64,000 nt of DNA from assembly GCA_024516035.1 (NCBI GenBank), contig CM044961.1, forward strand, positions 7,991,796 through 8,055,795, in the 5' to 3' direction. The DNA comes from Bactericera cockerelli (lineage: Eukaryota > Arthropoda > Insecta > Hemiptera > Triozidae). The first letter of the stretch is position 1; each line of letters begins with the position of its first letter. The notes beneath the pieces were generated by a model. The model was not told the origin of the DNA. It saw nothing but the letters and a program-made list of their open reading frames with translations, and did no database searches. Of this stretch, positions 3,889-57,134 are shown in pieces. Made by a program: the position numbers and the translations under genes.

Positions 3889-4118
3889 GCCAGCGTCTAT
3901 GGCGCGTTGAATGCACCGGTTCTCGTAGGATCGCTGAAGTTAAGCAACGTCCAGCGAGATGATGATTTCGTGATGCTGGCATTCAGGCCAATCCCAGGCT
4001 GTGTGAGGTTAATGTGGATAGCAGGTTTGTGATTTTCCAGCGAATGGAGGGTAAAACCCCCATCGTGATATGACCATACAGTAGAAAGCGACGTTAAACC
4101 CCCCCCCCCCAAAAAAAA
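3889..4118 (+). mobile_element. 5S-rRNA-derived SINE
   Basis: Begins GCCAGCGTCTATGGCGCG and continues with the 5S-like CACCGGTTCTCGTAGGATCG...GAAGTTAAGCAACGTCCAGCG. The family body with GTGATATGACCATACAG and GAAAGCGACGTTAAACC follows, then a C/A run. Immediately downstream (4119-4240) is a tRNA-like module with GGAGGTCGGTGGTTCAAGTC, so two SINE types are fused or abutting here. Confidence 0.8.
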
Positions 4119-4791: not shown

Positions 4792-4968
4792 GCTCTCATT
4801 CCAGAAATCACTCTCACTCTCATAATCCCCAAATATCCCTTTCAACCGTCACACAACGCACTCTGATTGTTTATTTCGTGCAAATTAACCAATCAGAGTG
4901 CGTTTTGTGACAGATGAAAGGGAGATTTGGGGATCATGAGAGTGAGAGTGGTTTCTGGAATGAGAGCC
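4792..4968. mobile_element. Foldback MITE, near-palindromic
   Basis: A 177-bp element whose two halves are almost complementary. The left arm begins GGCTCTCATTCCAGAAATCA and the right arm ends with the complement. The arms carry CCCTTTCAACCGTCACACAA and GCACTCTGATTGG in both orientations. Relatives lie at about 15825-16003 and 21490-21643, with a fragment at about 9930-9972. No coding capacity. Confidence 0.85.
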
Positions 4969-8653: not shown

Positions 8654-11600
8654 ATGTACTACTACATTGCGGAGCAACTTTTCTTCGTCATCTTCTTCGC
8701 CAGAGCCATTGCTCAGTTCACCACCACCAACTTGATCTTCCACAAGCTGTGCACCGGGGATGATCCCAACCATTATCTGGGGAAGATCTGCCCCAATGAT
8801 CGAGAGGCACAGGAGCAGACAACTATCCTCAACACTTGGCTCTTTGTCACTGGAAATCTGTGCTTCATGATCGCCTGCACGGTTGGTAAGTATACTTTTT
8901 TTTTGAGAGGCTTAGGAGAAAAATCTTTAAAAGACACCCGGAAACCATGGGGAGTGGGATTTCCACCCACTAAAAAAACCTAGACCTCTTTGGAGAAGAT
9001 GTAAACATAATGGGACTACCTGTCTTGCGCTGACAGTCTAAATAAAGCACTACTTATACTTATCACTTATCACAATAATAATAATAAAACTCTATAGTGG
9101 AAGGTAACCACCGGACGAGGTTAATGCTCAAAACATTTTCTACCACCTGACCCTCAGAGTGTTATTATTAATATTATTATGTGGTCACAAACCCAAATTA
9201 ATGAGGAAAAATTCATGCACTGGGTGAGATCCGAACCAACGGATCCCTATGCTACCTGGATTACCTGACTATTGCGTAAACCAGTTGACTACCAGTGTAT
9301 CTAGTATAGACATTTCAAACTTAGGACCGAATTATAAAACAGTATTAGATTTAATCTAATTGGACACTATGCCTGAACTCGGGCTATAGTGGGCTGTGAT
9401 TGGTTGAAAACTCCGACTTGAGGGCGTGTCTGGCTTAGCTGATGTGGCACTTACTCATCAACTCATCATCATCAATTACATCAACATTTCACTCACCATG
9501 ACCATTATCACATCATCGTCGTCATAATACGACCAAAATGATGAATAAACCTAAGAAACTATGAATACGAATCTAAGAAATTATCTATGATTTGTTCATT
9601 CAAATAACAATTGATATAAATTCCCTGTGATTGGTTGAAATTCCCACTATAGACAAAACAATATTAAAGGCAAAACAGAATAGAATAGAATAAAAATATA
9701 ATTGTATTTCTCAATAAGAGTTTACAATAGAGGTTGAAATGCAAGTTAGTTAAACAATAATTCTAAAATTACATAATAAGTTTTTAGAAAAACAATTACT
9801 ACATGCTATTATTTTGCAGTGCCACATAATTTTTCCCCCCATTTTTCTTCTGCTTTTTCCTTTATTAAAGGCGAAACAGCATTAGATTAATCTAATCCTG
9901 TTTCATTATTGAGACCTTAATATACCTAGAAAACACTCTCATTCTCAAAATATCCCTTTCAACTGTCAATTTTTTTTTAAATTGTACACCGTGTGTTGTT
10001 TACCATACACAATTACACCATGATGTCCTCCCTTTCAGGCGGCTACTACAGTGACCTCTACAAGCGTCGGAAGCCTCTTATGTACGTCCCCTTGGTGGGG
10101 CTTCTCCTCTGCAGTCTGGTCAACATCGGCTTCGTTCACTTCTGGGAGGAGGTGTCCGGCAAAGTTGTCGCTGTGTTCAATGGTGTCATGTGCCTGTTTG
10201 GGGAATCGAACCTCCTGTACACAGGTGAGTATTACTATACGTTCACTACTGGGCGAGGAGGCGTCACTGGGTCAATGGTGTCATGTGTCTGTTTGGGGAA
10301 TCGAACTTGCTGTACACAGGTCAGTATTACTTCCGAAAAATTCTAAAAATAACTATGAAGTATTGTGTTGTTTTTTTTTAATATCATATTTTTCCTTCGA
10401 TTTCAGTTTTTTTCATATTTCCGGACGTATTTTTCTTTTTCCTTTAACAAGAACAGTGATTAGAGTATTGGGTCTGAGATGTGTAATAATTGTGTATCAT
10501 TCAACTATGTTTTCAAATAAGCTTTTTGTCAAATTTATACTTAGCTGGAGAACGAAATTGTTGCAGTTATACCTAAAAATGTGTGTAAAATTGTTGATGT
10601 ATAAATACATCATCACCATTAAAACCAACCATAATATTACTATACATTACATGATTTACATGCATTATTTATATTTTAGAATCAAAACAACAGAACTTCA
10701 ATATTAATGTCCTAGAGTTCATGTCATATCAAGACTTCTACAATAATAAATACTCTTTGTTAAAGTTCAGTTATGTAGCTTAGGACGATTAAAAAGAGCC
10801 TGAAAGCTGCGATTTTACAATATTTTCAGACGTCATAGAAATAACCAAAAATAAAATAAAAGATATCCTTTTTTAAATGAACATTTATTTAAAGAGAGGT
10901 CTATAACAATCGAAGTCCTTGCCCCAAAGAAAGATATCCTTAATGTCAAAATTAACAGCTTTTGAAAAAGTCTTCCCGAATTATCCCCTTTCAGGAGGTC
11001 TCTGCTTCGTGACAGACCAATCCCCGGTGTCGGCTCGATCCTTTCGTATCGGCATTTTCATCGCGGCCTACTACGTCTCCACGCCCATCGGCCGAGGCTT
11101 GGCCGGCCAACTGAACGTCCAGTATGGCTTCATCAACTGCTACATCCTCTGCATCTTTCTCTACATCATCTCCCTTCTCATCGTCACCTTCTGTCTGAGC
11201 GAGCTGGGGCAGCCTTTCTACTCAGACGATGTTGAGAAGACAAACAGCATCAAGAGGGCGCTGACGCTCTACGACAAAGTCAGCATTTCGTCGGCTGCCA
11301 AATCGGAAGATGACAGAAACGCAGGCTCGCACAGAAATGTAGAAAATGTGAAACATGCAGAAGAATATGGTAGCATGGATAACACTGAAATGGATTTTAC
11401 AGACAAAGTTGAAAAAAGCATTCACGTTGAGGATTTGAACAGGATAGATATTGCCTGTATTGAAAAAGATAAAATCATAACCCGTGAGACGTGGGATGAT
11501 TGTGAAGATGCAGATTTAAAAGATAAACAAATGAAAGACGTTGGGGAAATACGAAATAATACTGATAAAAGCAGATTAGAAAATGTCATTGAAAATAACT

Positions 11601-15300: not shown

Positions 15301-17248
15301 TTTCCGTTTCCAGAATGGCATGGATGTAAAGATAAAGTGCCCTGAAGTAATACGAAAGTGGTTCCGGGGCACAACTGTACCTTTTTTTTTAATTATTATT
15401 ATTATTATATAATTCTTTATTAGATACAAAAGGACATTATGTACATATAAATAATAATTTTAACAGTGAAAAATCAAAAAAACAATATATACAATAAAAA
15501 TGAAAAAGAATAGAAAATATTTAATGTATTTTTCATTTTTTTTTCTCTCTATAGTACCTATTTATCTCTTAGATCTCTTCCTAATACTTTGCCTTTCCAT
15601 CTGCTCTTTGGTTTCCCTCTCTTTGTTTGACTGTTTAGTTCTACCTAATTGGGTGCTTAATTATTGAACAATATTGTCCTATTTGTGCGGCCTGACTGAA
15701 ATAATGAGTCCCAATATGCCAGCAGTAAGCCCAAAACGTATTTTCTTGTGGTAAAAATTCCAAATGCGGGCTTGTTATGTCTCGTCTGGGTTTCGAACCT
15801 CGGATCTATAGATCGATCCAAAAACGATTACGACTCTCATAATATCCAAATCTCCCTTTCAACCGTCACACTCTGATTGGTTAATTTGAACACAATAACC
15901 AATCAGAGTGCGTTGTGTGACGGTTGCAACGGAGGTTCGGGAATCTGGAGAATTGTTTGAGGGAATTTTTGACAGTGGAGAGTGTTTCTGGAATGGACTA
16001 CTAGTTTACCACTTTACCAGGCTTTATTATTTTTTTTTTATTTTTTAATATTCATTTATTTATTAAAATTTGTATTTTTTTTTTTTATTTTTTTATTACA
16101 GATAATATATTTCTGCCATTTGCAATCCAGAGGGCAAAGTACTCAGAATACTTGAGCAATTTCCTCTCTGGGTTACAAGTGACATTTTTTTGTAATTTAT
16201 TTATTTATTTACAAGACAATAATAAGACAATGTACATTTTATCTGGTACCTATCCCTTGAGATTCAACCTAGCAGTTGAATTAAGAGATTGGGTGGAAGA
16301 GATTGCCAAAGGCAATAACCCCACCCTTCAGGTAGGACATTAACTTCATTCTTTTTTTTCCTGTATCTTTGCTTAATCTTTTTGTTTTTCTTTATAATTT
16401 CATTCTCTTTTACTATATGTATATATTTTTGTTCTCATACCTAATAAAGTTTACTATCAAACACCTCGGCCGAGTTGTGAGAACGCCAATACAAAGAAAG
16501 AGGCAGCCCGGCAGAGTGTAAGGTAATAATAATAATTAAGGCTTTCTTATCCCCAGGCAAGCTGTTCGCTCTCAAGTACACCGTGGACTGTCTGGTCCCT
16601 GTGGTTCTCTACCCACTCTACAATACAGTCTACAGGGAGACCCTCACCTACTTCCCAGGGGCTTTCTTCCTCATCAGTGCCGCCTGCTCGTTCCCCGGCA
16701 TATTCTCTTTCTCGTGAGTTTACTACACGTCACTAGCATAGATTTAGTAGGTAACGAACACTTTCTGCTTAGGAATTTTCTTCATAAGCCATTAAACCCT
16801 TGCGAAAGTGCAAGCCAGGCCTTGTAGAGGTTGGCTACTCAGTTCTCTGTTTATAGTCCTCTAGCAAGACACTGGTCTTCTTTCTGGTTAGCTGCAAGCT
16901 AGCCTGGCTTGTAAGGGTTGGCTTATAGTCAGTTCTCTGTTTATAGTTCTCCAGCGAGACACTGGTCTTCTCCCTGTTTAACTGCAAGCTAGCCTGGCTT
17001 GTAAGGGTTGGCTTAATATAGTCAGTTCTCTGTTTAACGTCCCCCAGCCAGGCATCCAAATTGCAGAGTCAAATTGCAGAGTGTTGTGATTTCGGGATTA
17101 ACCTTTGTGCCAATGATTCATTCGTTTTTTTTATGAACATTTATCTAAAAGAGGTCTACTGGTGAGTTTTAGTTGATACTCTTCTGTTTCCAGGTATGTG
17201 AATTATCTACAAAGGGACAGGACGTACCCAGTAACAACCCATCTGTAA
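8654..17248 (+). CDS. SLC46 / proton-coupled folate transporter-like (SLC46-A)
   Basis: Membrane transporter of the major facilitator superfamily, SLC46 branch, predicted in the plasma or endolysosomal membrane; substrate not predictable. Coding exons: 8654-8885, 10039-10224, 10995-11957, 12553-12654, 13756-13893, 15109-15192, 16557-16713, 17194-17248. All introns are GT-AG and frames join cleanly to 638 residues and a TAA. About twelve membrane segments are visible: TM1 at residues 5-25, TM2 at 58-78, TM5 and TM6 in exon 3, TM7-TM12 in exons 3-8. The MFS TM2-TM3 motif appears as GYYSDLYKRRKP. A charged loop of about 225 residues (212-437) separates TM6 and TM7, far longer than in vertebrate SLC46. 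The first ATG directly follows AAATTTCCCAAG, which could be a splice acceptor, so an upstream exon is possible. Paralogue: SLC46-B. Confidence 0.9.
8996..9060 (+). mobile_element. Retroelement 3' end with CTGTC/GACAG hairpin (intron 1)
   Basis: GGGACTACCTGTCTTGCGCTGACAG is followed by TCTAAATAAAGCACTACTTA. The same block occurs at 32348-32405 and 42458-42505. The CTGTC-ttgcgct-GACAG stem-loop and following TACTTA-rich tail suggest a LINE 3' terminus. Confidence 0.55.
9073..9297 (-). mobile_element. tRNA-derived SINE (family 1), reverse, in SLC46-A intron 1
   Basis: Plus strand begins (AAT)n then TAGTGGAAGGTAACCACC and ends ACCAGTTGACTACCAG, the reverse of the family-1 head. Confidence 0.8.
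10177..10330 (+). repeat. Tandem duplication of SLC46-A exon 2 3' end and donor
   Basis: The sequence TCAATGGTGTCATGTGCCTG...GTACACAGGTGAGTATTAC (10177-10234) recurs at 10272-10330 with few changes, a period of about 96 bp. The first copy holds the coding end of exon 2 and its GTGAGT donor at 10225. The second copy keeps the exon-like sequence and a GTCAGT donor at 10321. Using the second donor would put the second copy in a different frame, and the paralogue supports use of the first. Confidence 0.9.
12017..12160. mobile_element. GC-rich MITE with about 25-bp terminal inverted repeats (SLC46-A intron 3)
   Basis: Left end GCTAGCAGTACACTCTCGCC (to 12041) matches the complement of the right end, which finishes GAGAGTGTACTGCGAGC. 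The interior is rich in GGCGAG/CTCGCC and much more GC-rich than its surroundings. TTA lies just outside on the left, and ATTA on the right, compatible with a 3-bp TTA target duplication of the PIF/Harbinger kind. Confidence 0.75.
12280..12525 (-). mobile_element. 5S-rRNA-derived SINE, reverse, just upstream of SLC46-A exon 4
   Basis: Plus strand starts with a T-run and a G-run, then the reverse family body (TGCATGGTCATATCACGACG, CTGGACGTTGTTTAACTTCG) and ends CGACGCTGGCC. The exon 4 acceptor lies 27 bp further on. A second reverse copy lies at 12839-13077 in intron 4. Confidence 0.8.
12839..13077 (-). mobile_element. 5S-rRNA-derived SINE, reverse (SLC46-A intron 4)
   Basis: Reverse complement of the family: TTTAAACGTCGCTTTCAACT, GAATGGTCACCCATC, CTAGCCTCGCTGGACGTTGC and a GCCATCGACGGCAACGTTGGC end. 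It retains the 5S-like GGGTGACCATTC block. Confidence 0.8.
13155..13361 (+). mobile_element. tRNA-derived SINE (family 1) in SLC46-A intron 4
   Basis: The head GGTATTCAAGTGGTTATC...GTTGGTTCGAATCCCACC and the standard body end in a (TTA)n tail. The head differs from other copies at the A-box side. Confidence 0.85.
14738..14915 (+). mobile_element. Retroelement 3' ends: ATTGC block and GTAGCCA hairpin with (CAA)n tail
   Basis: At 14738-14785 lies a GGAAGAGATTGCTATAGACAA version of the hairpin block. At 14788-14915 a second family has GGTTGATTGCACATAGAAAT, AAAGTTGGCTGGAGACCATC and the stem-loop GTAGCCA-agc-TGGCTAC, then (CAA)n. The second family recurs at about 23630-23750 (+) and, reversed, at about 63598-63660. 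Confidence 0.65.
15218..15390 (+). mobile_element. tRNA-derived SINE (family 4) after SLC46-A exon 6
   Basis: CTCCGTGGACCAGTGGATAA...GGTTGCGGGTTCGAATCCC is a tRNA-like head, followed by CGGAGCGGAAAATTC and a T-rich end. It begins about 25 bp after the exon 6 donor. Reverse relatives lie at about 17945-18045 and 43215-43325. Confidence 0.7.
15825..16003. mobile_element. Foldback MITE, second copy (SLC46-A intron 6)
   Basis: The left arm has CTCCCTTTCAACCGTCACAC and CTGATTGGTTAATTTGAAC. The right arm has AACCAATCAGAGTGCGTTGT and ends GAGTGTTTCTGGAATGGACT. The arms are less symmetric than in the copy at 4792-4968. Confidence 0.7.
16282..16455 (+). mobile_element. Retroelement 3' end with ATTGCC hairpin (SLC46-A intron 6)
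   Basis: GGGTGGAAGAGATTGCCAAA...GGCAATAACCCC, GGTAGGACATTAACTTC, a T-rich stretch and CCTAATAAAG. An open frame reading WVEEIAKGNNPTLQVGH crosses the hairpin and may be the C-terminus of the parent element's protein. Confidence 0.6.
16800..17055. repeat. Three-copy tandem repeat, 90-93-bp unit (SLC46-A intron 7)
   Basis: Units start CAGTTCTCTGTTTATAG near 16840, 16930 and 17023 and include CGAGACACTGGTCTTCT and CTGCAAGCTAGCCTGGCTTG. A diverged single unit lies at 63715-63810, so the unit belongs to an interspersed family that was amplified here. Confidence 0.75.
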
Positions 17249-20577: not shown

Positions 20578-20871
20578 GTAGTCACTGTGGCAGAGCGAGT
20601 TAGCGCGCTAGGCATTGCACACATGGTGACCTGGGTTCGATTCCCAGCGGGGGAGGATTTTTTCTGCTCTGTACTTGGATGTTCGGGGTCCACTCATACC
20701 TCGTGAGGAAAAATGAGTAGCTGCTTTAATGTGAAGCAGCGACCAGTGGCAGAATCTTAGGCAAAAAATTAAACAAGATATTGTAAATTAAAGTGGTAAA
20801 GTCCTATGATTCTGCGCTACCCACTAAAATTGTGACATAATAACACAAAGAAAAAGCATTATTATTATTAT
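20578..20871 (+). mobile_element. tRNA-derived SINE (family 2)
   Basis: The head CACTGTGGCAGAGCGAGTTAGCGCGC...GACCTGGGTTCGATTCCC has A and B boxes. The body includes TTTTTTCTGCTCTGTACTTG, CATACCTCGTGAGGAAAAAT, GAAGCAGCGACCAGTGGCAG and an (ATT)n tail. Other copies: 29649-29930 (-) and 54291-54560 (+). Confidence 0.85.
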
Positions 20872-20910
20872 TGACCACTTGACAGTATATAAACAAAGAT
20901 AAGGTCCTTC

Positions 20911-23900
20911 TTAGGTGACTTCCTCAGTAGGGAAACTCGATCTCCTTTTCTGCAAACATTTCACGATGCTGAAACAAAGAACAGGAAAGATGATTTTGTT
21001 TTCTATTTAATTTTATTTGTTTATTTGATAACATTTTTTTAATCAATGATTAGAAATATTAAAATAAAATACATAATTATACAATTGCCATGTTCTTGTA
21101 TTTGTTACACATAGACGTACAAACAAATACACTTGATGTATGTGTAACCAATGTAACCATCCTTTAAATTTTTTTTGAATATTAAATTAAATGAAAGCCG
21201 CATTGCATATATGTATAAGAAATGCCAGGCGTATTATTTCAGTTTCAAACATTCTATTGAATATATCGGTTTCTCTAAGATTGAACATGAGATTTTTTGT
21301 TGTTGCAAAGATAGGAACTCATTGTCCGAGAAGTAGGTACTATCTGAAATAAATTGAAATTCAAATCAAATGAAGTTATATTTAGAATTTTGCATACGAT
21401 TACCGAAATGCAATAGAGGCCGGAATAGCTGTACTTATCGAAAGCAATGAGGTCTGGAATGACACTTACATGAAAGAAATGAGGACTAGTAGCCCGTTTC
21501 AGAAACACTTTCTACTCTCCAAATCTCCCTTTCAACCGTCACACAACGCACTCTGATTGGTTATTGCGTTCAAATTAACCAATCAGACTGCTTTGTGTGA
21601 CAGTTGAAAGAGAGATGTGGAAAAGTGTTTCTGGAACGGGCTATAGAATGACACTAACCTGAAAGCATTCTGGACAGGAATGACAATTACCTGAAAGCAA
21701 TGAAGGCCGGGATGACACTTACCGGAAAGCAATGAAGGCCGGAATGACACTTACCTGAAAGCAATGAGGGCCAGAATGACACATGAAAGAAATGAGAGAA
21801 TGGCACTTACCTGAAAGCAATGAAGTCCGGGATGAAACTTACCTGAAAGCAATGAGGGCCAAAATGGCACATGATAGAAATGAGAGAATGACACTTGCCT
21901 GAAAGCAATGAAGGCCGGAATGGCACATGAAAGAAATGAGAGAATGACACTTACCTGAAAGCAATGAAGGTCGGAATGGCACATGAAAGAAATGAGAGAA
22001 TGACACTTACGCACTTACCTGAAAGCAATGAGGGCCAGAATGACACATGAAAGAAATGGGAGAATGACACTTACCTGCAAGCAATGAGGGCCAGAATGAC
22101 ACTTACCTGAAGGTAATAAAGGCCGGAATGGTCAGGGCCACACCCAGGAGGAAGAAAGCTTCGGGCCACACCTCCACAGTGTGCCTGTAGATCATCATGT
22201 AAATGGGCGTGGTCAGTAGGGGCAAACAAGTACTCATGATGCTGTTTACTGAAAGGACATTCGCTGGGGGAGGAGCATATACATAATTTACATGAAAGCA
22301 TTCTTGGTCGTTTAAGGTATGTTTAGTTAGAATAGATTGTTTTTTTTTTTTAATTTGGGTTTAACTTCGCTTTCAACTACATGGTCAAATCACGATGGGG
22401 ACGTTACACTCTATCTTCTATTCGCAGGAAACTCACAAACCTGCTACCGACAATAACCTCAAATAGCCTGAGTTGGGCCGGATGCCAGCATCACGAAGCC
22501 TTCACCTCGCTGGACCTTGCTTAACTTCGGTGATCCTACCAGAAACGGTGCATTCAACGCACCATCGACGCTGGCATGGATGGTTTAGTTGAGTAGTTAG
22601 AATACTGTAAACCAGCAAGTAATATAATATTTGCGGAGTTGTTAGAAAAGGATGATGCTGCCATTATATTGTTAAGAGACAAGACATTTTCTCTGGCGAT
22701 TTCAATGGCTTTCCTACAAATCCCCAAAACATTCAGTTAAAGAAAATCAATTGCTGAATTACACTATTCTACTATCTTGGTTATTTAATGAACGGTTCTA
22801 ACTAACCTCTACCACGATGATGCAACTAATCATTCAATGATAATACAGCCGTCGTCGATGGCGCGTTGAATGCACCGGTTCTTGAAGGATCACCGAAGTT
22901 AAGCAACGACCAGCGGGCGAAGACTTCTTGATGCTGGCATTCCGGCCTAACCCAGGCGGGATGAGGTCAATGTGGGTAGCGAATTTGTGATTTTCCTGCG
23001 AATGAAGGGTAACACCCCGTCGTGACATGACCATGAAGTTGGAAGCAACGTTAAACCAAAATAAAAAAAATCTCAGAAGTAAAATGATAATACAACCTTT
23101 ACGACTGCATGGTTCATATGGCTGTATTGAGTGCCTATTTAAAGAGAATACCTTAAAACACCTACAATTATCATTCTGGGTATGAGAACTTACGGAGTTC
23201 CAGGACATCTATTTCCTGGGAGAGAATGGACACTGTGATCACGAAGGCCGCAACGTGGAACATGTCAACAATTGGAACTGAAACAGATGACAAGAAATTA
23301 TCGTAGACCAGAGATTCCGAGTTCGATCCACGCTTTTATCAGACTTTTCATAGAAAATTCTGTTCCCTCCAAACACACGTGAGGTTGGTATTTCCGGCCC
23401 TACCCAGGCTGAGTGAGATAAATGTGGGTTCCTGGAACGATGCATAGCGAATGGACGGTGAATACCTCGTCCTGACTATCATCTATCCCAATCAGGACGT
23501 GAAACAGGTAGCAGACCAGTGTCTCCCTAGTTCACTATCAACAGAGAAATGTGTAATGTGTAGCCAACCCTAATAAGCCTGGCTAGCTTGCAGTTTCTCA
23601 AGGGTATAATTGCTTATTAAAAAAGCCCAAGTTCAAACGATGGTTGATCACACATAATAGAAATGTGTGGTTCAGAACGAGACAATTTAATTTTAAGTTG
23701 GCTGGAGACCATCACTCTCCCCAGCTGTAGCTAATTTGGTTACAACAACAGGAAATGACCCATGAAAGAAGTAATATAGAAGACCTGAGCTAGCCAGCGG
23801 TCGCGTCGATGGCATGTTGAATACACCGGTTCCCTTCAGAACACCGAAGTTAAGCGACATCCAGCGAGGTTAAGACTTGGATGGGTGACCATTCAAATTC

Positions 23901-26900
23901 TAATTCTCGTGACGCTGGCTTTTCCCGGCCCCACTCAGGCTGGGTGAGGTCAATGTGAGTAGCAGGTTTGTGAGTTTCCTGCGAATGGAGGGTAAAACCC
24001 CCGTCGTGATATGACCATGGCAGTTGAAAGCGACGTTAAACCCCAAAAAAAAAAAAAAAGACCTGAGCTAGTGACGAAGGCACATTAAATACCCCAGGTC
24101 TCAATTTATTGGAAGTGTAAGTATTTAAGCAACATCTAGCAAGGTTAGGACTTAAAAAAGACAGTTCAAATTCACACCCTCGTGATGCTGGCTGTTCCTA
24201 ATTTACCCCAGGTCCTAACTAAAAGCGTTATTGCCTTTGGCAATCTCTAATTCTCTACTCCAGGTTCAAGGTAAATGCTGCGTTGTGTTCAAATTATGTT
24301 TCCAGTGAATGGAGTATATTGCTCTCGTCTCAATATGACGGTAGCAGTTGAATGGGTGAGAATGCTTACCCAGGTACATCTGGAAGGTGTTGGTTACAAA
24401 CATATAGGAGACACACTCCAGACAGCTGGACACACAGGCCAGGAGGCCAATACTGGTGTCCTTCAGCTTAAACACTCTACCCAGGAGACCGATAGCCAAT
24501 AATACGCCTGAAAAAAGAAGAAGAAAAAAAAACAGATAGTGTTGTTCCACAAGTAAAATTGCTTACAATTATGGAATTCAACCAGACGCGGCCGGTGCTA
24601 AGAAAGAAGAGAAGATTCTCTCAAGTTCTAGCTCGAATACAATGAAAATCATCACACATTTCTACAGTAATTGATGCATAATTATTATGATTGGCATGGT
24701 AAACAAACTCAATCTCTTTAGATACTGTAGGAGCGCCTCTATAAATCACAGTCCGGTTTATGTGGCAGCACCCCAAAAATATTTTCCGGCTGACCGGTCC
24801 TGATTCCAAAAAAGATAAGACCAGAAACAGCCTCCTCAAAACGGACCCATCATAGCGCAGCATAGTCTTGAGGAAGGCGTGCTATAAGCTTTGTTGTATG
24901 CGATCTTAGTTTTTAATTTGACCCTGATAGAACTATAGGAGGCATAATTACAAAATATGGACACTTAATTTTACTGCTAGAGTAGGACTACATAGATTCC
25001 AACAGTAGATTTGGTGTCATTCTCATGGGGGTAAATTTTAGAATAAACGATAAAAAAGTCATACATAGATTTTACTGCTAGAGTAGGACTATCTAGATTC
25101 CAGCAGTTGATTTAGTGTCATTCTCATGAGGCCAAATTTACGAAGAAAGGAGGAAAAAATCATGCTTCGGGTGGGATTCGATCCAACGGCCACCCGACCA
25201 AGAAGAAAAGAACTCAATGTTGAGGAAGAACTTGCATTCTAGCAACAATTTAGAGGTTTAACTACGTAACGCAAAGACTTACATACAACATTCCTGAAAA
25301 GAATATTTGGACTCATTTATTACAAAGAGAATAAGTGATATTATTCATTGAGTTGTTATTCCAAAGAGACAAAGAAGTTATGCATACCAAAGGTGGCGCT
25401 CCATGCTTTGTATGCACTATACTTTCCGTAGTCAGATTCATTCCATCCAAACTTGGCCCGAACATAGTAATATAGCAAACTGTACTCCCCTGAAAACAAA
25501 ATAAAACAAAACAGAAATCAACTTTGTTTCAATACTTTGTTTTTTATATCTATGAAGTGTCAAAGATATTTTTACATGTCCCCCTTTCAATATGGACTTC
25601 CACAAAGTTACAAAGGCATCAATCAAGAGCTTGGAGATACATTAAGAAGAGAAATAACAGGTACCTATATCATGAAAAAGATAATGTATGGTTATACCTT
25701 AAGAGGAACGTCAATAATTTTCTTCAAAAACCGACCAAAAACAATACTTTCTATACCTTATAAGTAATAAAAAAAATCACCCATAAGGTATATAATAATA
25801 ATAAAAAAAATCAACCAGTGTATTTTTTTCGTCTCATAGGTCTAGATAAAAGCTATTTTTGGAGTTCTAAAAATACATGAAAGTAAGATAAAATAAAATG
25901 TCTTGTAAGTAAGATAAAATAAATCACATTATTTCTTTGAGAAGTTAGACAAATTGGTGCATTCTTCAAGTAAGTACATTATAATTTATACTTTGAAAGT
26001 ATTAATAAAATTTCTCCTGCTTTCCAACTTACCAACAATGGCCGCATCAAGAACCATGGTGATGAAGACCATGAGAAGAGCAATGGTGGTTCTGTGATTG
26101 CTTCGAGGCTTCAGAAGTATTCTGAAGTTGTTCAGACACATCTTGAAGGGGTTAAGATTTTCTGTTAAAGAGGTATTAACTGTTTCATCATGGTGCTTTT
26201 CAGATAATTTCTGTGAATTTTCTACATCTGTTGGTGCAGAGTCTTTTCTTCTATGTAGTTCATTTGCTGAACCATTCTGTTTTCTTTCACTGTGGTCAAT
26301 CTTCGCTTCATTGTTTGTCACATTATTATCTATATTTGTTGCACTTGCAAGATTGTTCTCCTCGTTTTGCTGGTTGGTATTTTGTACTGTTTCATCTCTA
26401 ATCGTTTCATCAGAAGTCGTTTGGCTCTTAATAATTGTAGCACGCAACCGAATTTCATGGTCATTTTGTAAGTGTTCTTTATTTATTTCGTGATTTTTTA
26501 AGATTTCTTCTTCTCTATCTGCTTGTAAACAGCTGTTTCCTCTAAACTTTATTTTTTCGATCGAATTTTCTTTGGTCTCTTCACTATTCTCAATCTCACG
26601 GATGTGATTTCCTTTGATTTCTTTTTCACCTTCATCATGTGTACGTGTTTCTACAATTTTTTCTTTATTCAGTACATGGTCACCATTTTCAAGAGCCTTA
26701 CCACTGTCTCCACAGATATTGTCGCTTTTTACTTCCACATCAACATTACTTCTGTCATGGGGTTCCTGGATCATAACTATAATGAGAAAACCAGCGATGA
26801 TGTTGCCAATGATGGACATGATGGAAATGACGTAGAACCCAAAGAGAATGGTCAGATAGCCACTCATAATGGACCCTAGAGGGCTGGAACAGGCATAGAT

Positions 26901-55189: not shown

Positions 55190-55668
55190 CATTGGTTCGA
55201 CAAGGAGTTGTAGGAGGGAGGGCAAACCATTGGTTCGACAAGGAGTTGTAGGAGGGAGGGCAACCATTGGTTCGACAAGGAGTTGTAGGAGGGGGGGCAA
55301 CCATTGGTTCGACAAGGAGTTGTAGGAGGGAGGGCAACCATTGGTTCAACAAGGAATTGTAGGAGGGAGGGCAACCATTGGTTCGACAAGGAATTGTAGG
55401 AGGGAGGGCAACCATTGGTTCCACAAGGAGTTGTAGGAGGGAGGGCAACCATTGGTTCCACAAGGAGTTGTAGGAGGGAGGGCAACCATTGGTTCCACAA
55501 GGAGTTGTAGGAGGGAGGGCAACCATTGGTTCCACAAGGAGTTGTAGGAGGGAGGGCAACCATTGGTTCGGAGTTGTAGGAGGGAGGGCAACCATTGGCA
55601 TGACAAGGAGTTGTAGGAGGGAGGGCAACCATTGGTTCAACAAGGAGTTGTAGGAGGGAGGGCAACCA

Positions 55669-55905
55669 CACTGAGAAAAAAAATTATCCTGGACATTCAT
55701 CCTTGAAAAAATGTTAAAATATAAGGATGATAGATACTAAATTAGTATATTACTCACTTCATTATTACAATGTAACAATGTAACTTGTATCGTTGTCTTA
55801 GTGTGCAAGGACAAATAATCTTTTTTAAAAAATAATCCCGATTCCATCCTCGTTTAATGATGGAATAAGGATTACTAGCTAACAAAGATGATTTTTTTCT
55901 CAGTG
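55669..55905. mobile_element. MITE with CACTGAG terminal inverted repeats, copy 2
   Basis: Same length and, as far as I can read, same sequence as copy 1, at the same position within a repeat unit. It is best explained by duplication of part of the array, not a second insertion. Confidence 0.75.
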
Positions 55906-57134
55906 CATTGGTTCGACAAGGAGTTGTAGGAGGGAGGGCAACCATTGGTTCGACAAGGAGTTGTAGGAGGGAGGGCAACCATTGGTTCGACAAGGAGTTG
56001 TAGGAGGGGGGGGCAACCATTGGTTCGACAAGGAGTTGTAGGAGGGAGGGCAACCATTGGTTCAACAAGGAATTGTAGGAGGGAGGGCAACCATTGGTTC
56101 GACAAGGAATTGTAGGAGGGAGGGCAACCATTGGTTCCACAAGGAGTTGTAGGAGGGAGGGCAACCATTGGTTCCACAAGGAGTTGTAGGAGGGAGGGCA
56201 ACCATTGGTTCCACAAGGAGTTGTAGGAGGGAGGGCAACCATTGGTTCGACAAGGAGTTGTAGGAGGGAGGGCAACCATTGGTTCCACAAGGAGTTGTAG
56301 GAGGGAGGGCAACCATTGGTTCCACAAGGAGTTGTAGGAGGGAGGGCAACCATTGGTTCCACAAGGAGTTGTAGGAGGGAGGGCAACCATTGGTTCCACA
56401 AGGAGTTGTAGGAGGGAGGGCAACCATTGGTTCGGAGTTGTAGGAGGGAGGGCAACCATTGGCATGACAAGGAGTTGTAGGAGGGAGGGCAACCATTGGT
56501 TCAACAAGGAGTTGTAGGAGGGAGGGCAACCATTGGTTCGACAAAGTAGGAGGGAGAGCAACCATTGGTTCCACAAGGAGTTGTAGGAGGGAGGGCAACC
56601 ATTGGTTCGACAAGGAGTTGTAGGAGGGAGGGCAACCATTGGTTCGACAAGGAGTTGTAGGAGGGAGGGCAACCATTGGTTCCACAAGGAGTTGTAGGAG
56701 GGAGGGCAACCATTGGTTCGACAAGGAGTTGTAGGAGGGAGGGCAACCATTGGTTCCACAAGGAGTTGTAGGAGGGAGGGCAACCATTGGTTCCACAAGG
56801 AGTTGTAGGAGGGAGGGCAACCATTGGTTCCACAAGGAGTTGTAGGAGGGAGGGCAACCATTGGTTCAACAAGGAGTTGTAGGAGGAAGGGCAACCATTG
56901 GTTCGACAAGGAGTTGAAGGAAATCCCAGGGCCTCGAGGGTTGAGTTGAGTTTCTGCTAGTTTCTATAGTACAATTTTTAGAGTCTGTATTAGATATCCA
57001 AACTGTTTCAATACTTACTCGTAAGTGTAGGAAAAAATCTTGGAATTTATTTAACTGGGCAGTTTTTGGCAAACTACCTTTTGCTTCGAAAAGTAGGTAA
57101 CTATATCTCAAACCTGCGATATGTTCAGTGATTC

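Follow-up and report, generated by a model that had tools for sequence, protein, structure and literature searches.

The last intron of a nine-exon MFS transporter gene contains a tandem array of copies of the gene's own exon 8/intron 8 boundary, and we consider this array to be, probably, a neutral minisatellite that spans the junction and whose intact units have the form of splice sites of dual specificity. The gene lies on the minus strand of a 64,000-nucleotide stretch of DNA from Bactericera cockerelli (hereafter the window), and its exons joined at the splice sites form a single open frame of 634 codons. On that strand its last two coding exons lie between 22263 and 20911, and the features on which the argument depends are listed below (a slash in a motif marks the splice junction).

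22107..22263, minus strand: exon 8 (157 nt) of the MFS transporter gene, taken from the open 634-codon model; its end is conserved in psyllid homologues
22099..22130, minus strand: copy E, the end of exon 8 plus the first 8 intron bases, with the real donor CAG/GTAAGT and its junction after 22107
21651..22098, minus strand: copies U1-U10 (32 nt each, U2 being 8 nt longer) and five 24-nt copies s1-s5, with ten AG/GT-like junctions
21462..21650, minus strand: copy U11, split by a MITE-like insert; AG gone, GTAAGT intact
21490..21643, minus strand: MITE-like hairpin insert of 154 bp within U11
21396..21461, minus strand: decayed copies U12 and U13, AG/GT tetramer gone
20969..22106, minus strand: intron 8, the last intron of the 634-codon gene model, 1,138 nt, phase 2
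20911..20968, minus strand: coding part of exon 9 in the gene model, which completes a split serine codon and gives IVKCLQKRRSSFPTEEVT-stop

The repeat unit and its origin at the end of exon 8

The 32-nt unit is composed of the end of exon 8, CATTCCGGCCTTTATTACCTTCAG (24 nt, the last of the exon), followed by the start of the intron, GTAAGTGT (8 nt). Copy E stands in register with the array and shares 28 of 32 bases with each of U3, U4 and U8. On the minus strand the junctions of U1-U5 fall after 22075, 22019, 21955, 21899 and 21843, and those of U6-U10 after 21811, 21755, 21723, 21691 and 21659. A sequence-only reading had reported that the exon 8 donor TTCAG/GTAAGT is followed by ten relatives of TTTCAG/GTAAGT, five of them exact, and both its coordinates and its sequences hold: TTTCAG/GTAAGT was found without mismatch at five of the ten junctions of U1-U10, and the AG/GT core is intact in eight, the exceptions being 21899 (AG/GC) and 21723 (CG/GT). 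Each intact copy does join an acceptor-like and a donor-like site, as that reading had described. Adjacent copies are spaced by 32, 56 or (once) 64 nt, TRF periods in the array are 32, 56 and 88, and U2 carries one further 8-nt duplication of the donor. The five 24-nt copies are interspersed in the array and have no AG/GT-like site because they lack GGCC and GTAA.

The array extends past U10, where three more copies (U11-U13), all decayed, reach 21396. AG/GT is intact in none of these three and in none of the five 24-nt copies; among the numbered copies, AG, GT or both are gone in U4, U8 and U11-U13. Measured against the nearer of two subtype consensuses, U1-U9 carry 0-3 differences and U10-U13 carry 4-7, so that the far end of the array is either the oldest or the least homogenised. 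Copy U11 amounts to 32 nt once the insert and one CTA are removed, and the CTA triplets that flank the insert are an apparent 3-bp target duplication. The insert has 22-nt ends that are 95% complementary and inner 46-nt arms that are 89% complementary, and it belongs to a MITE-like family with related pieces elsewhere in the window (4815-4933 and 15845-15940, and a 39-nt match at 9931-9968). A structured-RNA search of 20800-22700 (E <= 1) gave 12 microRNA-family matches, all 12 of which overlap the MITE hairpin and score well below gathering. In addition, 5S rRNA-like stretches lie at 23799-23920 (plus strand, 54.9 bits), 3889-3981 (plus strand, 47.1 bits) and 22483-22575 (minus strand, 37 bits, just under the gathering score of 38); two of the three are inside transporter introns, and they are probably 5S-derived SINEs.

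Three observations rule out a chance origin of the array. Sites within two mismatches of TTTCAGGTAAGT number 24 in the window against 10.1 expected, with a maximum of 19 in 100 shuffles; the perfect 9-mer CAGGTAAGT occurs eight times in the 64 kb (both strands), seven of them at the exon 8 end and in the array; and the last 24 bases of exon 8 share up to 21 of 24 positions with array copies, against at most 15 of 24 elsewhere in the window.

The direction of copying is given by the relatives of the gene. At E <= 0.001, five database relatives of the transporter protein were found among 7,997 scored candidates (42-46% identical), the species being Cacopsylla melanoneura, Diaphorina citri and Cyamophila willieti, all of them psyllids; by themselves these matches would make a psyllid, or an insect close to the psyllids, the probable source of the window. 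Four of these five homologues reach the exon 8 end (P0004 falls short), where the motif encoded here as IPAFITF reads VPAFISF in P0001, IPAFISF in P0002, IPAFIAF in P0003 and IPAFISF in P0005, P0002 and P0005 being forms of one D. citri protein. In addition, a paralogous gene occupies about 8.6-17.3 kb of the window on the plus strand.

16557..17193, plus strand: paralogous transporter (label SLC46-A), exon 8 (157 nt) and a 480-nt intron, without array

The paralogue's intron interrupts the same aligned residue in the same phase 2 as intron 8 and contains zero repeat units. Together, the conserved exon end in the homologues and the array-free intron of the paralogue indicate that exon and intron are older and that the copying of the junction took place within an intron already present. 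The earlier proposal that tandem duplication of the exon-intron junction produced the array is thereby borne out, the exon end itself being an in-register copy. At one position the array copies encode A where exon 8 encodes T. The reverse course of events, an intron born from the array (the Rogers model), was rejected because the paralogue's 480-nt intron, identical in aligned position and phase, contains no units.

As to the identity of the host gene, Pfam MFS_1 was the sole Pfam match of the protein, and neither sequence nor profile search returned a solved structure at E 0.001. NCBIfam scans of three homologues, the window protein being left out, produced weak MFS-transporter matches far under the cut-off in two and zero in the third. 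For these reasons the name SLC46 (SLC46-A for the paralogue, SLC46-B for the gene with the array) is kept only as a label. Phage records searched with exon 8 and viral contigs searched with an exact 27-base piece of the unit each gave zero matches.

Site strength, conservation and predicted products

The highest-scoring donor 9-mer of the gene occurs seven times, once at the real donor and six times in array copies. Sites were scored with acceptor and donor weight matrices that were set by hand. When the 490 AGGT tetramers of the window were ranked by combined acceptor and donor score, the top six were the exon 8 end, U1, U2, U3, U5 and U7, and U6 ranked eighth. With the same hand-set matrix the acceptors of U1-U7 and U9 scored 7.6-8.9, against 6.1-14.2 for the gene's real acceptors, and the real acceptor of intron 8 scored 11.9, above the array acceptors. 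Seven identical best donors combined with mid-range acceptors mean that the silence of the array sites comes without guarantee. Recursive-like features were also seen outside the array. The paralogue's real last acceptor has the form TTCCAG/GTATGT (17193/17194, plus strand) and ranked ninth of the 490 AGGT sites. The exon 8 end likewise resembles a 3' splice site (22107-22135, minus strand), with CTGAC 25 nt upstream, pyrimidines and CAG, and is a possible distal exonic recursive site of the kind described in an excerpt of PMC10156609.

Conservation of the splice core was assessed by a column shuffle on a hand-gapped alignment of the copies, with four column groups and no correction; the shuffle takes no account of how the copies are related, and 13 copies give it little power. 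Mismatches per site in AG/GT were 0.115 compared with 0.107 for the rest of the unit across U1-U13 (P 0.65), and 0.050 compared with 0.089 across U1-U10 (P 0.42). For the donor 9-mer the corresponding P values were 0.30 and 0.16. The 13 acceptor-side columns were marginally better kept (P 0.052 for U1-U13 and 0.035 for U1-U10), this being one of four groups, uncorrected. AG/GT is not clearly retained in preference to the rest of the unit, in a test that is weak with few and related copies. The 24-nt copies, which lack the site, indicate tolerance of its loss.

Because exon 8 ends in phase 2, each copy of GTAA reads AG/G TAA, and use of array sites would converge on one product. The same predicted product, ...AFITFR-stop, results from each of the 11 later donors (those of U1-U10, whether decayed or not, plus the extra one in U2) and from full retention of the intron; it ends one residue past the junction and loses the 18 residues after the split serine codon. 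Among the acceptor-donor pairs of U1-U10, again with decayed sites included, 39 of 45 end in ...AFITFR-stop; the other six all start at U4, which escapes the immediate stop because its GT-to-GC change removes the TAA. An array acceptor opening a longer last exon leads to this ending in eight of ten cases (U4 and U10 end otherwise). Microexons of 32 or 56 nt had been suggested as a possible outcome that would change the C-terminus; rather than varied endings they share the single ...AFITFR-stop ending, except for one microexon from U4. From the stop to the last junction the distance would be 28 nt after use of U1 and 84-444 nt after use of the other donors, and by the vertebrate rule nonsense-mediated decay would be expected for stops 84-444 nt before the last junction. 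Full retention of intron 8, the last intron, leaves zero downstream junctions. Hidden coding on the opposite strand was dismissed, open stretches there running to only 25-56 codons (cut-off 25). Inside the array the longest open stretch on the gene's own strand is 87 codons, in the frame of a conceivable cassette exon from U4 to U7.

Proposed neutral growth and rival readings

According to the model we favour, a 32-nt stretch over the exon 8/intron 8 boundary (24 exon and 8 intron bases) would have been duplicated in tandem, and slippage or unequal exchange would then have enlarged it into a minisatellite of 32-nt units with 56-nt (24+32) and 88-nt blocks, one far copy of which received the MITE-like element by insertion. 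An intact unit inherits the pyrimidine-rich exon end together with the donor CAG/GTAAGT, and the dual-specificity site would be a by-product of this inheritance. Tolerance of the array would follow from two things: exon definition would give preference to the donor closest to the acceptor of exon 8, and an intact exon end with a donor would survive any gain or loss of whole units. Low-level use of array sites may nevertheless occur, in which case splicing from a later donor, like retention of the intron, would run into the TAA at once, and the outcome would be either a protein without its tail or an mRNA that is unstable.

It is rather unlikely, in our judgement, that the array is instead a working decoy, in which perfect U1 sites (donors, as distinct from copy U1) paired with acceptors would form unproductive complexes, slow the removal of intron 8 and set the ratio of full-length to tail-less (...ITFR-stop) protein. 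The seven perfect CAG/GTAAGT sites, real donor included, speak for such a decoy, the acceptor scores of U1-U7 and U9 fall inside the gene's real range (hand-set matrix), and retention and the 11 later donors lead to one defined predicted product. A precedent exists in OGT, where, according to an excerpt of PMC12017769, a decoy with two predicted 5' and two predicted 3' sites promotes retention. However, AG/GT lacks excess conservation and five copies have lost the site, the real intron 8 acceptor outscores the array, and the paralogue manages without an array.

A further idea is a copy-number-dependent splicing rheostat, in which identical U1 sites and acceptors would either retain the last intron or release it by non-adjacent recursive jumps. 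We regard this as unlikely. If it were true, repeat number would tune the share of transporter with the 18-residue C-terminal extension relative to that with the ...ITFR end, and new in-frame exons would arise from single-base changes like the one in U4. As a separate observation on the same intron, AATAAA/ATTAAA hexamers are clustered upstream of the last acceptor (21006-21043, minus strand), with AATAAA at 21025 and 21017, and U1 sites might guard against early polyadenylation there.

Recursive (ratchet) splicing, by which intron 8 would be removed stepwise through some of the array sites to leave a normal mRNA, appears quite unlikely. The array does offer strong AG/GTAAGT sites (hand-set matrices) and a branch-like YTNAY motif 22-42 nt upstream of each of U1-U10, and human recursive lariats span a range of intron lengths, with conventional lariats preferred below 1,000 nt, in the portion of PMC10156609 consulted. 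YTNAY is a weak criterion, however, since it is absent 15-50 nt from the real exon 9 acceptor; moreover, an intron of 1,138 nt would gain little from the process, and AG/GT shows no preferential conservation. Spacings of 32 or 56 nt come close to the size of the smallest animal introns or fall under it, so that only jumps longer than those between neighbouring sites would be feasible.

Exon birth is very unlikely. In that account the GT-to-GC change of U4, which abolishes the TAA, would open an in-frame cassette exon of 144 nt extending to U7, adding 48 codons (hydrophobic in the second half) before the normal tail. Only the six pairs starting at U4, of 45, escape the immediate stop, and the U4-U7 pair stays in frame into the tail. 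Yet an open in-frame cassette of this kind appears in seven of nine copies, counting U4, when their first stop is disregarded, so the U4-U7 cassette is ordinary, a property of the spacing, and its standing as a remarkable feature was ruled out; the architecture alone explains it. Finally, that an unrelated minisatellite resembles the exon end by coincidence is hardly conceivable, for the general commonness of tandem repeats in the window (68 TRF rows) is all that speaks for it and the exon-end match, above the best elsewhere in the window, is in exact register with the donor. Those 68 rows include a large 37-bp (111-bp) minisatellite at 55190-56921.

The array is a natural experiment in how the spliceosome picks among several identical 5' splice sites. 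It also poses a second question, namely whether the growth of a repeat that crosses the exon boundary is harmless because splicing hides it. Both questions are testable, given seven identical donor 9-mers at known spacing and one readable product for nearly every error, and the 24-nt and decayed copies serve as built-in negative controls.

Comparison with known systems

The minisatellite of the interferon-induced gene 6-16/IFI6 is said, from work by Turri et al. in 1995, to provide multiple splice donors, and its array reportedly includes the exon-intron junction. The same arrangement was found here, copy E being in register with the other copies. In IFI6 two downstream repeat units are used as donors, according to an excerpt of a citing paper, whereas the units described here are candidate donors.

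Tandem dual-specific splice sites have been described in UBC, where AG/GT at the boundaries of head-to-tail repeats is usable in principle as a 5' or a 3' site and where expansions were proposed to be less harmful since they can be removed by splicing; introns with dual-specific sites are in 8.4-fold excess in tandem repeats (both from the consulted part of PMC10809524). The present array resembles UBC in having AG/GT at successive repeat boundaries (eight of ten in U1-U10) and, potentially, in the hiding of repeat expansion by splicing. The UBC repeats, however, are coding units of 228 nt that are divisible by three and preserve the frame, and RNA evidence shows them in use (PMC10809524, same part), whereas the copies here are 32 or 24 nt long, intronic and known from their sequence, and the 32-nt units and 56-nt blocks lead to an immediate stop, at the first codon, in the exon's frame.

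Competing splice sites within an intron are also a feature of the decoy exons in the detained intron 4 of OGT; these are exon-like units with demonstrated action, as far as the excerpt of PMC12017769 goes, whereas the array is a repeat with at most a putative function. The ratchet points of Drosophila likewise place an acceptor and a donor side by side around AG/GT with no exon between them (PMC6110457 and PMC8605326, in extract), and by the hand-set matrices the array has the same juxtaposition of 3' and 5' motifs. Recursive splicing in Drosophila appears restricted to very long introns, in the extract of PMC6110457; intron 8, by contrast, is short at 1,138 nt, and the array has many sites, very short spacing and an origin in local duplication. 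A junction minisatellite in this intron is real; a ratchet or decoy function for it is possible but unsupported.

Intron gain by tandem duplication of AGGT, for which a part of PMC4974935 cites 24-bp AGGT repeats in fission yeast genes, similarly starts from a short tandem duplication carrying AGGT, but in that process the intron is absent before the duplication, whereas here the paralogue has the same phase-2 intron. Set against its published relatives, the array is thus distinguished by being short, non-coding and frame-breaking, by lying inside a pre-existing intron, and by counting the exon end among its members.
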